Shown: piece by piece, positions 10,524 to 55,465 of the stretch
Position numbering within the stretch: the first letter of the stretch is position 1
Layout of the letters: each line of letters begins with the position of its first letter
Source of the DNA: Lentzea sp. NBRC 105346
GTDB taxonomy: Bacteria; Actinomycetota; Actinomycetes; Mycobacteriales; Pseudonocardiaceae
NCBI RefSeq assembly: GCF_030269605.1
Contig: NZ_BSTQ01000007.1
Span: forward strand, 1 to 64,000
Reading direction: 5' to 3'
DNA length: 64,000 nt
The notes under the pieces: model-generated
Told to the model about the DNA's origin: nothing
Database searches by the model: none
What the model saw: the letters and a program-made list of their open reading frames with translations, nothing else
Program-made: the position numbers and the translations under genes

Positions 10524-10703
10524 TTACTTGTGACTCCTCGTCTTTTGGGCACACGCACACGCCTTGACGAGGCCGGTCTTCGATCGAAGTCCCCTGGACT
10601 CCTGCTGCCAGGGGGCCACTACCGAGGACCGGCGAACTGCTCGCGTGAGCGTGTTCCCTGTTTCCTCTTTTCAGCCAGGGCTCTGTATACACCTGGCTGT
10701 AAG

Positions 10704-42199: not shown

Positions 42200-42425
42200 G
42201 ACGGACCCGACAACCTGCGAGGGGTGAGCGGAATTTCCGCATGCCCTCCCCGACAACCCGCTAGTCCCCACCCGACAATCCCGCAGGCCGACTGGACAAC
42301 CCCCAAGGCTGAGCGGGCAACGTGGACCCACCCGACGATCCGCGAGGCTGAGCGGACAACCCGCAGGCCCTCCCCGACAACCCGCGGGACTGAGCGGGCA
42401 ACACGCGGACCCGACCCGACAACCC
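42200..42425. repeat. 21-bp degenerate minisatellite, about ten units
   Basis: Cores of GACAAC or GGGCAAC recur about every 19-22 bases (near 42208, 42252, 42274, 42294, 42315, 42334, 42355, 42375, 42397 and 42418). Intervening text is of the form CCCGCAGGCCCTCCCC or CACGCGGACC. Because 21 is a multiple of three, all frames remain open and encode 7-residue repeats such as RVVGEGL-RVVRSAS; I do not regard them as genes. The rest of 41877-42531 holds no supported gene. Confidence 0.7.
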
Positions 42426-42531: not shown

Positions 42532-42567
42532 AAGCGGGAGTCCCCCCGCCCAGGGGGACCCCCGCTT
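42532..42567 (-). terminator. Terminator of the DPBB-ricin gene
   Basis: AAGCGGGAGTCCCCC (42532-42546) pairs with GGGGGACCCCCGCTT (42553-42567) with one mismatch. It lies 41 bases after the minus-strand stop, and on that strand is followed by TGCG. It reads as an intrinsic-like terminator, shared in space with the minisatellite edge. Confidence 0.75.
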
Positions 42568-42608
42568 CTAATTCTCCCAGAAGGGTCTGACAGTTCCGGA
42601 ACGTCAGA

Positions 42609-48030: not shown

Positions 48031-49284
48031 TCAACGCTCCCAGACTCCGGGAACAACAACGACGTCGGCTTCGACCGGATTGTCCACAGTGGGACCGGTT
48101 CCAAGCGTTACGAAAGCCACCGCGGCGCCCGCTTCGGCAAGCTCGACGGCACCCGTTTCGCGAATCTCCGTGCCGGGGCGCAACAGGTGCCGAATGCCGT
48201 CGACCGCCGCCGCGGTTCCGACGACGAACGCCGCGCGCCGCAGCTCCGCCTCCGCCCGCGGCGTGCGCTGGTCCGCGGTGCCCGGCCCGAGCCCTACCAA
48301 CGCGAGCCGGCCGCGCGGCAACACCCGAGCCGCGGCCACGGTCACGTTGTCCCGCTTGAACTTCTGGGCCGCAAGCTCCACCTTCGTGCCGAGCGTGCCC
48401 GCGCCGTGCAACGCGGCCGCCTCCGCGACGCTTGCGGTGCCCATCGAGTTGCGCACCACCGAGCTCGGGTTGGGCACGCCGATCTCGTTGAGGATCTCCG
48501 TGCTGAACGTCAGCAGCTCGGCGGTGTCGCCGTGCCAGAAACCCCACTCCTCCACGGCGTTGACGATGCCCGGTTCGTCCGCCTTGGCGTCGACCGTCGC
48601 GAACGCCTTGATCGCCCGCAGGTCGAGCCCACCGTCGAGGTCGAGCCCCTCCAACGCGGCACCGACCGACTGCGCCGTGACACCGCGCGTGGACCCGACG
48701 CCGACGACCAGGGTGCGCGGCACGATCCGGAGCGTGTGCTCCTTCGGCGGCGCCGACCGGTCGTCGATGACGATCACCCACGCCGCGCCCTCGCCGGCGC
48801 CGACGACGTTGTCCGGCAACGCGGGCAACGGGAAGCCGAGCGGGTTGCGCAGCACCACGACCTCACCCGCCTCGACCGCCGCCGCGCACGCGACGAGGTC
48901 GCCGTCGACCGTGGCGTCGAGCTGTTCGACGAGCTCGTCGAGCACGCTCTCGTTCGTCTCGCCGGTGGTCACCACCGGCGTGCGGTTCAGCACGTCCGCC
49001 ACGTGCCGCGCGAACGCCCCCGCGTCGCCGGCGAGCGCCACGACGAACTCGTCGTCCACGCACACCACGGCCGGGTCGGATCGCTTGTCCCGCAACAGGG
49101 GCGCGATGAGCCGGACCGCCGAACCCGCGTCGGTGAAGAGCACGACCGCGCCGAGACGCGGCCACAGGCTGTGCAGCGCGGGGCGGGGCGCCCCGTCCGG
49201 GACGACGGCGTCCGCGCCGAGGAGGCCGGCGAGGTCGGCCGCGTCCCTGCGACCGCGCTCGGTCGCCGCGAAGACTCCGATCAC
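48031..49284 (-). CDS. CbiG-like cobalt-precorrin-5A hydrolase with truncated CobJ tail
   Basis: A 417-residue protein. CbiG N-domain (VIGVFAATERGRRDAADLAG), middle domain, and the CbiG C-terminal domain (VVGVGSTRGVTAQSVGAALE and AIKAFATVDAKADEPGI) are present. CobJ-like sequence begins at RLALVGLGPGTADQRTPRAE but runs only about 95 residues, against about 230 for a complete TP-methylase, so C-17 methylation is doubtful. The start GTG 49284 is a duplicate of the original 5' end at 49499 (see separate entry). It is the last gene of the cobalamin operon. Confidence 0.78.
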   Translation of the reverse strand: MIGVFAATERGRRDAADLAGLLGADAVVPDGAPRPALHSLWPRLGAVVLFTDAGSAVRLIAPLLRDKRSDPAVVCVDDEFVVALAGDAGAFARHVADVLNRTPVVTTGETNESVLDELVEQLDATVDGDLVACAAAVEAGEVVVLRNPLGFPLPALPDNVVGAGEGAAWVIVIDDRSAPPKEHTLRIVPRTLVVGVGSTRGVTAQSVGAALEGLDLDGGLDLRAIKAFATVDAKADEPGIVNAVEEWGFWHGDTAELLTFSTEILNEIGVPNPSSVVRNSMGTASVAEAAALHGAGTLGTKVELAAQKFKRDNVTVAAARVLPRGRLALVGLGPGTADQRTPRAEAELRRAAFVVGTAAAVDGIRHLLRPGTEIRETGAVELAEAGAAVAFVTLGTGPTVDNPVEADVVVVPGVWER

Positions 49285-49499
49285 TTGCGCCCCCACAAGC
49301 CGGTCGCCGGTGCGGCTGATCTGCCCAAAGACACCGAGTTGCCCACAGCCGCCGAGTTGTCCACAGGCGCCGCCGCAGCACCCCGAACTGTCGGTGCCGC
49401 ATGGGAAAATGAAATCAGGGATTCCCCCGGCGGGGACGCCTGCGCAAGCACGGCCGCGTCCCGGCGACCGCGCTCGGTCGCCGCGAAGACTCCGATCAC
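49237..49499 (-). repeat. 48-bp direct repeat pair at the cbiG 5' end
   Basis: 48-base copies at 49237-49284 and 49452-49499 differ at about one position and both encode VIGVFAATERGRRDAA from a GTG that overlaps the preceding stop. The 167 bases between them contain 18-bp units of GTGGACAACTCGGCGGCT type. Confidence 0.85.
49281..49499 (-). CDS. Chimeric small ORF between cobL and cbiG
   Basis: GTG 49499 overlaps the cobL stop (GTGA). The first 17 codons match the cbiG start; the rest has unrelated sequence with 6-residue repeats (VDNSAA, VGNSVS, LGRSAA). It ends TGA at 49281-49283, overlapping the next GTG at 49284, so it is coupled at both ends. It is probably a by-product of the duplication and may serve only as a coupling relay. 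Confidence 0.45.
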   Translation of the reverse strand: MIGVFAATERGRRDAAVLAQASPPGESLISFSHAAPTVRGAAAAPVDNSAAVGNSVSLGRSAAPATGLWGRK

Positions 49500-50323
49500 C
49501 GCTTGGTCCCCCACACCACCGCAACGGGAGCGGCGGCCGCGAAACCGTCGTCCACCAGCCGGGCGGCCGTCAGCTGGCAGCCGTCGACCTCGTACCCCGC
49601 GGCCCGCAACGCATCCCGAGCCGGCACGATCCGATCCACGTGCGTGGTCGTCACGACGACCCGCGAGGCACCAACGGCCACGGACGTCCGGACGTCACCC
49701 GGAGCCCCACCACCGACGAACACGGCGTCGGGCTTGGGCAGCTCCGCCGACTGCAGCTCGGACTCCACCACGCGCACATCAACCTGGTGCGCCGAGGCGT
49801 TCGCGATGATCCGCACGCACTGCACGGGATCGGGCTCTACCGCGACCACCGCGGCACCGAGCCGCGCGCATTCGATCGCGACCGCGCCCGAGCCCGCGTT
49901 GACGTCCCACACGAGGGTGCCCGGTCGCGGCGCCAGCCGCGCCAGCACCAGGGAACGCACCTCGGAGCCGATGACCTCACGGTGTGCGAAGGCGTCGTCG
50001 GGCAACGCCCAGCCGACGTGACCGTCCGCGATCTCCGTGTCCGCCAGGCACAGCACGGCGGTCGGCTCGACCCAGCGGCGCGTCACGGCGTCCGCAGGGT
50101 CCACAGTGGACAGCTCATCCGAGTCGGAGCCGGCGACGGTCAGCGTGCGGCGCCAGCCGGCCAGGCCCTGGCCGAGCTCGGCGGGACCGGCACCGGGCGC
50201 CACGCGGACGACCACGGCGGGCCGGGCGCGGCACAGGTTCAGCGCGGGGCGCAGACCGTCCGCCGCGTCGACCACGGGGACGTCGGAACGGCCGGAGGCG
50301 TCTAGCAGACGCTGGACTGTCAT
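49496..50323 (-). CDS. cobL: Precorrin-6Y methyltransferase, CbiT domain with vestigial CbiE
   Basis: A 275-residue protein. The C-terminal CbiT SAM domain is complete: TLVWDVNAGSGAVAIECARL and DAVFVGGGAPGDV. The N-terminal part, about 100 residues with AVTRRWVEPTAVLCLADTEI and GWALPDDAFAHREVIGSEVR, looks like a shortened CbiE domain that lacks most of its TP-methylase core. Full-length CobL is about 400 residues. C-5 methylation is therefore doubtful. ATG overlaps the cobM stop. Confidence 0.82.
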   Translation of the reverse strand: MTVQRLLDASGRSDVPVVDAADGLRPALNLCRARPAVVVRVAPGAGPAELGQGLAGWRRTLTVAGSDSDELSTVDPADAVTRRWVEPTAVLCLADTEIADGHVGWALPDDAFAHREVIGSEVRSLVLARLAPRPGTLVWDVNAGSGAVAIECARLGAAVVAVEPDPVQCVRIIANASAHQVDVRVVESELQSAELPKPDAVFVGGGAPGDVRTSVAVGASRVVVTTTHVDRIVPARDALRAAGYEVDGCQLTAARLVDDGFAAAAPVAVVWGTKR

Positions 50324-51351
50324 CAGTTCGGGTTGGCCCGCTTGGGCTTACGCTGCGGCGGCTTCTTCTTCGGCGGCGTCGTACTCGCCCGCACGCCGGT
50401 GGTCTTCTTCGTCGCCGCGACCACCGTCAGCTTCGGCTTCGGCTGCGGCTCAACGGGCTTCTCTTCCTCAACCGGAGCGGGAGCAGGAGCCGCGACAGGC
50501 TCCGGGGCGGTCTTACGCGCCGCCTGCTGTATTTCCTCGACCGCCGTCCACGCCGGGTTCGGTTCCTCGACACGCGAGGCGATCCGGGTCGCGGCCCGGC
50601 GCGACCAGCGCGTCGGACGCGCCGAGCGGATCGGCTCGTCGAGCGGCTCGCGGCGCGACCTGCCCTTGGCGACCGTGCGGCCGACGAGGAACAGCGCGGC
50701 GCGGTAGAGCTTGTGCTTCTTGACCGTCTGCTCCAGCTGGCCGACGGTCGTGTGCACGATCAGCTCGTCGGACTGGGAAACCTTGTACGCCACCACGACC
50801 GGCGTCTCGTCGGCGTAACCGCCGGCGCGCAGCTTCTCCACGAAGTGCCCGGCGCGCGCACCCGGCAGCGACACCGCCATGGTGGTGCCGTGCGCGGCGA
50901 ACTCGCTGACGCCCTCGACCCGGTCGGGCGCGGCGAGGATGATCGACTGCGCGAGCTCGGAACCGGTCAGCTCGCGGCCGATCGACGCGGCCGCCGCCGA
51001 GAGGGGCGACACACCGGGAACGATCTCGACCTCGAGGCCGAGCCGCTGGCAGCTGTCGAACTGCTCCTGCACCCCGGCCCACGTCGCCGCGTCACCGGCG
51101 TGCATCCGCACGACCTTCAGGCGGCTGGCCGCGGCCTTGCGGTACAGCTCGATGATCTCCTCGTGCGGGACGCGCGAGAAGTCGACCAGGTCGGCCTCGG
51201 GTTTCGCGTGCTCGCGAACGCATTCGGCGTCCACGACGCTCGGCGCCCAGACCACGACATCGGCCTCGGCGATGCGACGCGCACCCCGCAGGGTGATGAG
51301 ATCGGCGGCACCGGGACCGGCACCGACGAAGGAGACCCGACCGGTCGTCAC
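50323..51351 (-). CDS. cobM: Precorrin-4 C(11)-methyltransferase
   Basis: A 342-residue TP-methylase. Residues 1-250 are canonical: GRVSFVGAGPGAADLITLRG, RMHAGDAATWAGVQEQFDSC and VEIVPGVSPLSAAAASIGREL. The last 75 residues are an unusual Pro/Lys-rich tail (PQPKPKLTVVAATKKTTGVR) with no homology. GTG 51351 is chosen. It is 33 bases after cobB and is coupled to cobL. Confidence 0.93.
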   Translation of the reverse strand: MTTGRVSFVGAGPGAADLITLRGARRIAEADVVVWAPSVVDAECVREHAKPEADLVDFSRVPHEEIIELYRKAAASRLKVVRMHAGDAATWAGVQEQFDSCQRLGLEVEIVPGVSPLSAAAASIGRELTGSELAQSIILAAPDRVEGVSEFAAHGTTMAVSLPGARAGHFVEKLRAGGYADETPVVVAYKVSQSDELIVHTTVGQLEQTVKKHKLYRAALFLVGRTVAKGRSRREPLDEPIRSARPTRWSRRAATRIASRVEEPNPAWTAVEEIQQAARKTAPEPVAAPAPAPVEEEKPVEPQPKPKLTVVAATKKTTGVRASTTPPKKKPPQRKPKRANPN

Positions 51352-55309: not shown

Positions 55310-55465
55310 CCACGCCCGTGTCCGGTGATCAAGGGGGACGAGTTCCTGACTCCCGGATCTTTCGCACCGGTCACAGTCGCGGGACGGCGCCGGATTCCCA
55401 CCGGCTTCCTCGCACTCCCCTACAGCCTGGGCATCGTCGCATCCCGTGGGTTCGCCGACCAACCC
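55310..55465 (-). promoter_or_regulatory. Cobalamin riboswitch
   Basis: On the minus strand the core GGAAGCCGGTGGGAATCCGG, followed by CGCCGTCCCGCGACTGTGACC (55368-55408), matches the cobalamin riboswitch, including a B12 box GCGACTGT (consensus GCCACTGT). Downstream GGGAGTC (55348-55354) can pair with GACTCCC (55290-55296), which lies just before the chelatase ATG, giving a plausible translation-blocking stem. It should repress the chelatase-cobO-cobB-cobM-cobL-cbiG operon when B12 is plentiful. Confidence 0.9.

Follow-up and report, generated by a model that had tools for sequence, protein, structure and literature searches.

The DNA analyzed here is a stretch of 64,000 nt (hereafter the window; positions 1–64,000 of contig NZ_BSTQ01000007.1, assembly GCF_030269605.1) from Lentzea sp. 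NBRC 105346, whose draft genome comprises 9.39 Mb in 67 contigs. The minus strand carries a cobalamin-type operon that includes a cob(I)yrinate adenosyltransferase gene, cobM, cobL, and cbiG, and our subject is the junction at which cobL gives way to cbiG (Table 1). A cobalamin riboswitch and an Actino-pnp RNA are also found on this strand.

Table 1. Features of the window around the cobL–cbiG junction, and spacers at this junction in Lentzea
Feature	Position	Strand	Remarks
cobM	50323–51351	−	meets cobL in TGATG
cobL	49496–50323	−	upstream gene, 275 aa, CbiT part; from the ORF list
cobL stop TGA	49498–49496	−	
GTGA	49496–49499	−	cobL stop overlapping the first GTG
First GTG (old cbiG start)	49499–49497	−	
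Relay ORF	49281–49499	−	72 codons plus TGA
Relay TGA	49283–49281	−	overlaps the present cbiG GTG
Present cbiG GTG	49284–49282	−	
cbiG	48031–49284	−	downstream gene, 417 aa; CbiG_N, CbiG_C, and a partial C-terminal match to tetrapyrrole methylase
Duplicate copy 1 of the cbiG 5′ end	49444–49499	−	
Duplicate copy 2	49229–49284	−	present cbiG 5′ end
Module A	49377–49445	−	copy of the 72-bp dispersed repeat; profile matches
Three 18-bp units	49313–49366	−	CTGTGGACAACTCGGCGG type
Probable degenerate copy of the cobL 3′ end	49285–49316	−	relay tail AAPATGLWGRK vs. CobL AAPVAVVWGTKR
Second copy of the 72-bp repeat	42532–42604	+	beside a 21/42-bp tandem array (42204–42425)
Cobalamin riboswitch	55320–55453	−	
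Actino-pnp RNA	10572–10633	−	
Spacer, 215 nt			Lentzea sp. NBRC 105346
Spacer, 182 nt	L042:2319–2500		Lentzea sp. NBRC 102530
Spacer, 68 nt			L. aerocolonigenes NRRL B-16140
Spacer, 53 nt			L. jiangxiensis
Spacer, 47 nt			L. albida
Spacer, 47 nt			genome G002

The 5′ end of cbiG is present twice, as copies of 56 nt with 93% identity that lie 215 nt apart and differ at one base over the first 48 nt from the GTG. The first GTG, at which cbiG begins in 17 of the 23 Lentzea genomes with cobL, opens a short relay ORF that shares 4 nt with cobL and 4 nt with cbiG and whose translation is VIGVFAATERGRRDAAVLAQASPPGESLISFSHAAPTVRGAAAAPVDNSAAVGNSVSLGRSAAPATGLWGRK followed by the stop. Between the duplicates lie module A and an array of 18-bp units, which TRF delimits at 49322–49372 (2.8 copies, 84% matches). 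A reading of this DNA from its letters alone (the sequence-only reading) had described a cbiG start duplicated 215 bases downstream, 18-bp repeats in the intervening sequence, and an in-frame ORF ending in a TGA over the new GTG, and each of these features is present. That module A makes up part of the insert as a separate element, and that the cbiG frame is open there as well, come in addition to that reading. The first 18-bp unit includes TGTGGACAA, the complement of TTGTCCACA, which we take to be DnaA-box-like. A scan of the window for the 18-bp core gave six matches versus 3.6 expected, and one for the TGATTTCATTTTCCC core returned the known site as its single match. In contig C1, TGTGGACAA occurs 19 times versus 3.4 expected, including three pairs at 18-bp spacing.

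The insert ends in what is probably a degenerate copy of the cobL 3′ end: in a gapped comparison, 49 of 1000 shuffles were equally good, and an ungapped test of the last 20 nt against the cobL end was not significant (P = 0.70). A GGGGG Shine–Dalgarno-like run (49290–49294) lies 5 nt upstream of the present cbiG GTG. Folding of the junction RNA is ordinary (z = −0.10), the sole Rfam match up to E = 1 within 49200–49600 is isrG at 11.4 bits versus a threshold of 100, and a Pfam search with 71 residues of the relay peptide gave no match. Because the cbiG frame is likewise open through the insert and the relay frame stays open in 57% of dinucleotide shuffles, the open frame in this one genome is by itself unremarkable, not significant, and weak evidence.

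The operon had also been called essential, a claim that we reject. Near 80–86 kb of contig C14 lies a fuller set consisting of CobL with both CbiE and CbiT, CobM, CobIJ, and CobK, all exceeding the curated NCBIfam cut-offs, and the operon in the window is thus not the sole B12 set of this strain. Compared to four other family members, the CobL of the window lacks some 100 or more N-terminal residues; its CbiT match falls under the NCBIfam cut-off, and it has no CbiE match. CobM and CbiG of the window also fall under the NCBIfam cut-offs, and CbiG_N, CbiG_C, and the CobM methylase domain pass those of Pfam. The idea that the C-terminus of CbiG supplies the missing part of CobL was discarded, as BLASTP gave nothing below E = 0.36. 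Both cobL and cbiG show dN/dS of about 0.25–0.41 (four of 22 relatives compared), a sign of purifying selection and hence of genes in use.

Spacers at the cobL–cbiG junction within and beyond Lentzea

We compared 24 genomes of the genus, 23 of which contain cobL (genome G013 gave no cobL match). The junction is a plain GTGA overlap in 17 of the 23 and contains a spacer in the remaining six. The insert of NBRC 105346 was found in none of the 22 other cobL-bearing genomes, and the spacer sequences differ among the six strains. All six are nonetheless alike in form: the length is 2 mod 3, the frame is open from the first GTG, a TGA ends on the cbiG GTG, and GTGA is present at both ends, giving a short ORF with a 4-nt overlap with each neighbor. 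The sequence-only reading had proposed comparing this junction among related species, and the comparison yielded five other Lentzea spacers, all following the same frame rule. The counterexample that it had named, a relative with this insert in frameshifted form, was not encountered, none of the 22 other genomes having the insert at all.

The idea of a conserved phase arose from NBRC 105346, and this strain was therefore left out of the phase test, which comprises five cases. None of these five spacers is out of phase, corresponding to a probability of (1/3)^5 = 0.0041, or 0.0024 when openness is included; if phase 0 is harmless and only phase 1 harmful, the five-case value becomes (1/2)^5, about 0.03. 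Openness itself adds little (P = 0.34 over six spacers), because a pure duplication of 2 mod 3 length fuses the start of CbiG to the end of CobL in frame and is open by construction. The earlier suggestion that the frame is kept open as if a relay were selected is supported in that the phase is kept; openness is not evidence by itself.

In a tree of CobL and CbiG, the six spacer strains are scattered among spacerless lineages. Support in the crown is low, with several nodes at 28–66, and six fully independent gains are for this reason not proven. Outside the genus, where 18 loci passed our filter (the upstream gene being taken as found by the filter alone), a direct overlap occurs at 12, including that of the outgroup Umezawaea. 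At one locus (L101), a non-relay spacer comes after a GTGA stop; at another (L112), the gap of 8 nt conforms to the frame rule trivially; and four loci have other arrangements.

As controls, we examined the pnp–M16, M16–dapB, and cydD–cydC overlaps, none of which contains an inserted spacer in any of the 24 genomes. The contrast between 6/23 at cobL–cbiG and 0/72 at the controls (Fisher, 1.2e-4) is an imperfect comparison, conservation being higher in the control genes than in cobL and cbiG. A clean in-frame overlap is found at 70 of the 72 control junctions. In one exception, cydD of G002 stops 32 nt early at a TAG with the length of the stretch unchanged; in the other (G013, L239), the pnp–M16 GTGA is intact, and downstream of it the loss of a single base disrupts the 5′ reading frame of the M16 peptidase gene. 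This deletion may be a sequencing error or real, the assembly consisting of 630 contigs. Within the B12 operon itself, cobM–cobL and cobB–cobM have no long spacers. Three reservations apply to cobM–cobL: the two genes are about 11 nt apart in L. jiangxiensis, TGATG is missing in G018, and in G002 the match begins too far in for this site to be seen.

Within NBRC 105346, a scan for junction duplications at 2,200 gene-like stops, covering the window and contig C1 (1.2 Mb of 9.4 Mb) with gene calls from a rough GC3 filter, gave 13 direct repeats, among which cobL–cbiG alone combines an NTGA overlap with 2 mod 3 spacing. A rough scan for short ORFs bridging a stop and a start gave 13 rows in C1 and three in the window, including the cobL–cbiG relay, although the same place is sometimes listed in two rows and several rows resemble real small genes.

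Origin of the spacers and the 72-bp dispersed repeat

In the five spacers other than that of NBRC 105346, the 5′ end is similar to the cbiG start of the respective strain (Fisher, 2e-5 versus shuffles) and the 3′ end to its cobL end (Fisher, 4e-7). Such similarities would be expected if the junction had been duplicated in tandem, and they may be partly due to start-site constraints. Single cases are weak, as seen for the 5′ end in L. jiangxiensis (P = 0.30) and L. aerocolonigenes (P = 0.07) and for G002 (P = 0.07 and 0.08). In NBRC 105346, the origin of the 5′ end is certain. The spacer of NBRC 102530 consists of units of 60 + 60 + 62 nt, implying that the later duplications there were multiples of three, and neighboring units have 57/60 and 43/60 bases in common. 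This 182-nt relay amounts to a small coding minisatellite within a coupling spacer.

A search for dispersed copies covered two of the five other spacers, the 47-, 47-, and 53-nt ones being too short. No strong second copy of the NBRC 102530 or L. aerocolonigenes spacer was found in the 24 genomes (34–38 candidates scored per genome), the next-best matches having E = 3.7e-5 over 40 nt and E = 2.5e-5 over 47 nt, respectively, and these two are therefore unlike dispersed repeats. With two of the five others searched, a dispersed repeat inside the spacer is known solely in NBRC 105346.

The repeat in question was modeled over 72 positions. In the NBRC 105346 genome, the model gives at least 64 matches at E < 1e-5 and at least 79 at 0.01 (150 of 4,162 candidates scored). 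There are at least 3 to 13 matches in each of the 23 other Lentzea genomes, at least 11 in one genome from a different family, and none in the remaining 35 of 60 (83 candidates scored in each), a contrast that may be overstated, as the model was built from NBRC 105346 copies and stricter filters applied in the other genomes. Copies are depleted from genes: seven of 64 lie inside ORFs versus 386 of 600 random places, and 57 of the 64 fail the in-gene test. The seven fall in six ORFs, namely those of two ABC transporters, a LuxR-type regulator (two copies), an HrpB-type helicase, an S13 peptidase, and a FabA-domain protein, and the four sense copies are all in one frame (..SILP.DTDNSG). In the two ABC transporter genes (L275:995–2548 and L313:1243–3252, both minus strand), the repeat is in frame just ahead of the nucleotide-binding domain. 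The first of these, which we label CydC-like, contains the insertion in one of 24 genomes and lacks it in 23, and for this reason the family has probably moved in the NBRC 105346 lineage (one of the six ORFs compared).

The claim that a dispersed repeat was inserted into the operon stands insofar as module A is such a copy; the start and stop of the relay ORF come from the local duplication, the repeat being part of the insert only.

The LuxR-type ORF (L201:9208–12357, plus strand) has 1050 aa in an open frame, about 200 of them contributed by two copies of the repeat together with a minisatellite whose units measure ~21 aa. On the reverse strand of the 64 copies, the most conserved positions are TGTCRG (64/64). 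The longer pattern TGTCRGTG-N8-NAnnnT, found in 36 of 64, resembles the RecA-NDp/PafBC promoter motif, and the first base of its −10 part is T in none of the 64.

Proposed ribosome hand-over across the spacers

The overlapping stop and start that mark termination–reinitiation are present at cobL–cbiG, and ribosomes finishing cobL probably re-initiate on cbiG at the ancestral 4-nt overlap. In NBRC 105346, the junction would have been duplicated, with the mobile 72-bp repeat and the 18-bp repeats ending up between the copies, and the insert would have survived by virtue of a stop-free length of 2 mod 3. A ribosome would end CobL, restart on the old GTG, read 72 codons, end on the TGA that overlaps the new GTG, and restart on cbiG beside the Shine–Dalgarno-like run. 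The relay peptide itself is probably irrelevant, and equivalent relays appear to have arisen in five other Lentzea from other sequences, probably separately. The anatomy, the scattered distribution, the phase rule, and the lack of inserted spacers at the controls are direct observations, for which serial termination–reinitiation would be the simplest reading, and we infer that the phase is maintained by selection and not by chance. On balance, we favor coupling preserved via the relay ORF as the best reading and consider it moderately probable.

Features of the start sites bear on this reading and on its main competitor. In the 17 spacerless genomes, the cbiG GTG sits behind a GGGGA or GGGGT run, and the predicted anti-Shine–Dalgarno pairing is −5.5 in 16 and −6.1 in one. 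In the six spacer strains, the second start has a run too, and the pairing predicted for the cbiG start ranges from −7.0 to −9.5 in five. The exception is L. jiangxiensis, with a weaker predicted value for the new start than for the old one (−5.5 vs. −8.4). A predicted pairing as good as or better than that of the old start in five of six would suit a neutral spacer, in which cbiG acquired a ribosome-binding site of its own by the duplication, the first GTG is unused, and the phase is due to chance; the apparent partial redundancy of the operon and the openness expected in GC-rich DNA point the same way. We nevertheless judge a neutral spacer rather unlikely, given that the phase is 2 in all six (five of five without NBRC 105346) and that a GGGGA or GGGGG run is retained at the first GTG in every one.

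A second alternative is transposition of the type known from mycobacterial interspersed repetitive units (MIRUs), in which stop/start overlaps are the target of a mobile repeat that brings a short ORF with it. The −4 overlaps and the internal dispersed repeat match the MIRUs as described in a recent review (PMC12548453), whereas the start of the relay lies in the duplicated cobL/cbiG junction and its stop in the second copy of that junction, neither being in the repeat. Together with the failure of most repeat copies in the in-gene test and the lack of strong second copies of the NBRC 102530 and L. aerocolonigenes spacers, this makes such a transposition improbable. Still less credible is a functional relay product, either a small protein, against which stand the lack of a Pfam match and the six relay peptides that by eye have little in common past the start, or a CbiG lengthened at its N-terminus by way of the cbiG frame, which is open throughout the NBRC 105346 insert and closed in L. 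albida. An assembly or sequencing artefact, conceivable in a draft of 67 contigs, can practically be dismissed, as the duplicate copies differ, the insert is internal to a 361-kb contig, and comparable spacers occur in five other genomes, four of the five being identical in a second collection.

If preserved coupling through the relay is correct, the six strains provide natural alleles at one junction that probe how important ribosome hand-over is to bacteria, the spacers varying in sequence and length and keeping only their phase. It would also mean that bridging short ORFs can arise without a useful peptide and would illustrate how a dispersed repeat enters an operon harmlessly. More tentatively, with slightly less than even confidence, we propose a hotspot at the cobL–cbiG overlap of Lentzea, where local duplications or captured repeats give rise to relay ORFs time and again, which are kept solely in the phase that hands the ribosome on, the peptide being free to drift. 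Such a hotspot would offer naturally replicated examples of selection that acts on nothing but the reading phase.

Comparison with known systems

The in-frame copies of the 72-bp repeat resemble the Rickettsia palindromic elements. Elements of this kind have in-frame copies within ORFs that are absent from the same gene of relatives, and they contain a long palindrome. The 72-bp repeat is similarly in frame within ORFs (seven of 64 copies in six ORFs, with the four sense copies in one frame), and in the CydC-like gene, for which relatives were compared, it is absent from them. Unlike those elements, it is depleted from genes, and in place of a long palindrome it has a consensus structure of only 3 base pairs and no more than a GGGGGTCCCCC core; the likeness is one of arrangement. 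We found no paper on an interspersed repeat in Lentzea in the open-access literature.

For coupling, a 2025 review states that termination–reinitiation occurs at −4 (NTGA) overlaps (PMC12548453), the arrangement of the ancestral cobL–cbiG junction and of each end of the relay. Unlike ordinary coupling, which involves one overlap, the Lentzea relay would place two overlaps in series that span the insert.

The closest comparison is with the MIRUs, whose original description the same review credits to Supply et al. (1997). It presents them as apparently mobile repeats that insert at start codons, with an ORF coupled at −4 nt spacing, and regards the insert as likely to have little effect on expression (PMC12548453). 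As in the MIRUs of that account, a short ORF stands at the start of a gene and is coupled at −4 nt. In contrast to a dispersed family of units with their own start and stop, the start and stop of the relay derive from the junction through a 56-bp duplication and are not carried by the repeat, and the six Lentzea spacers differ from one another. The proposed function is thus the same as that of the MIRUs, and the make-up is different.
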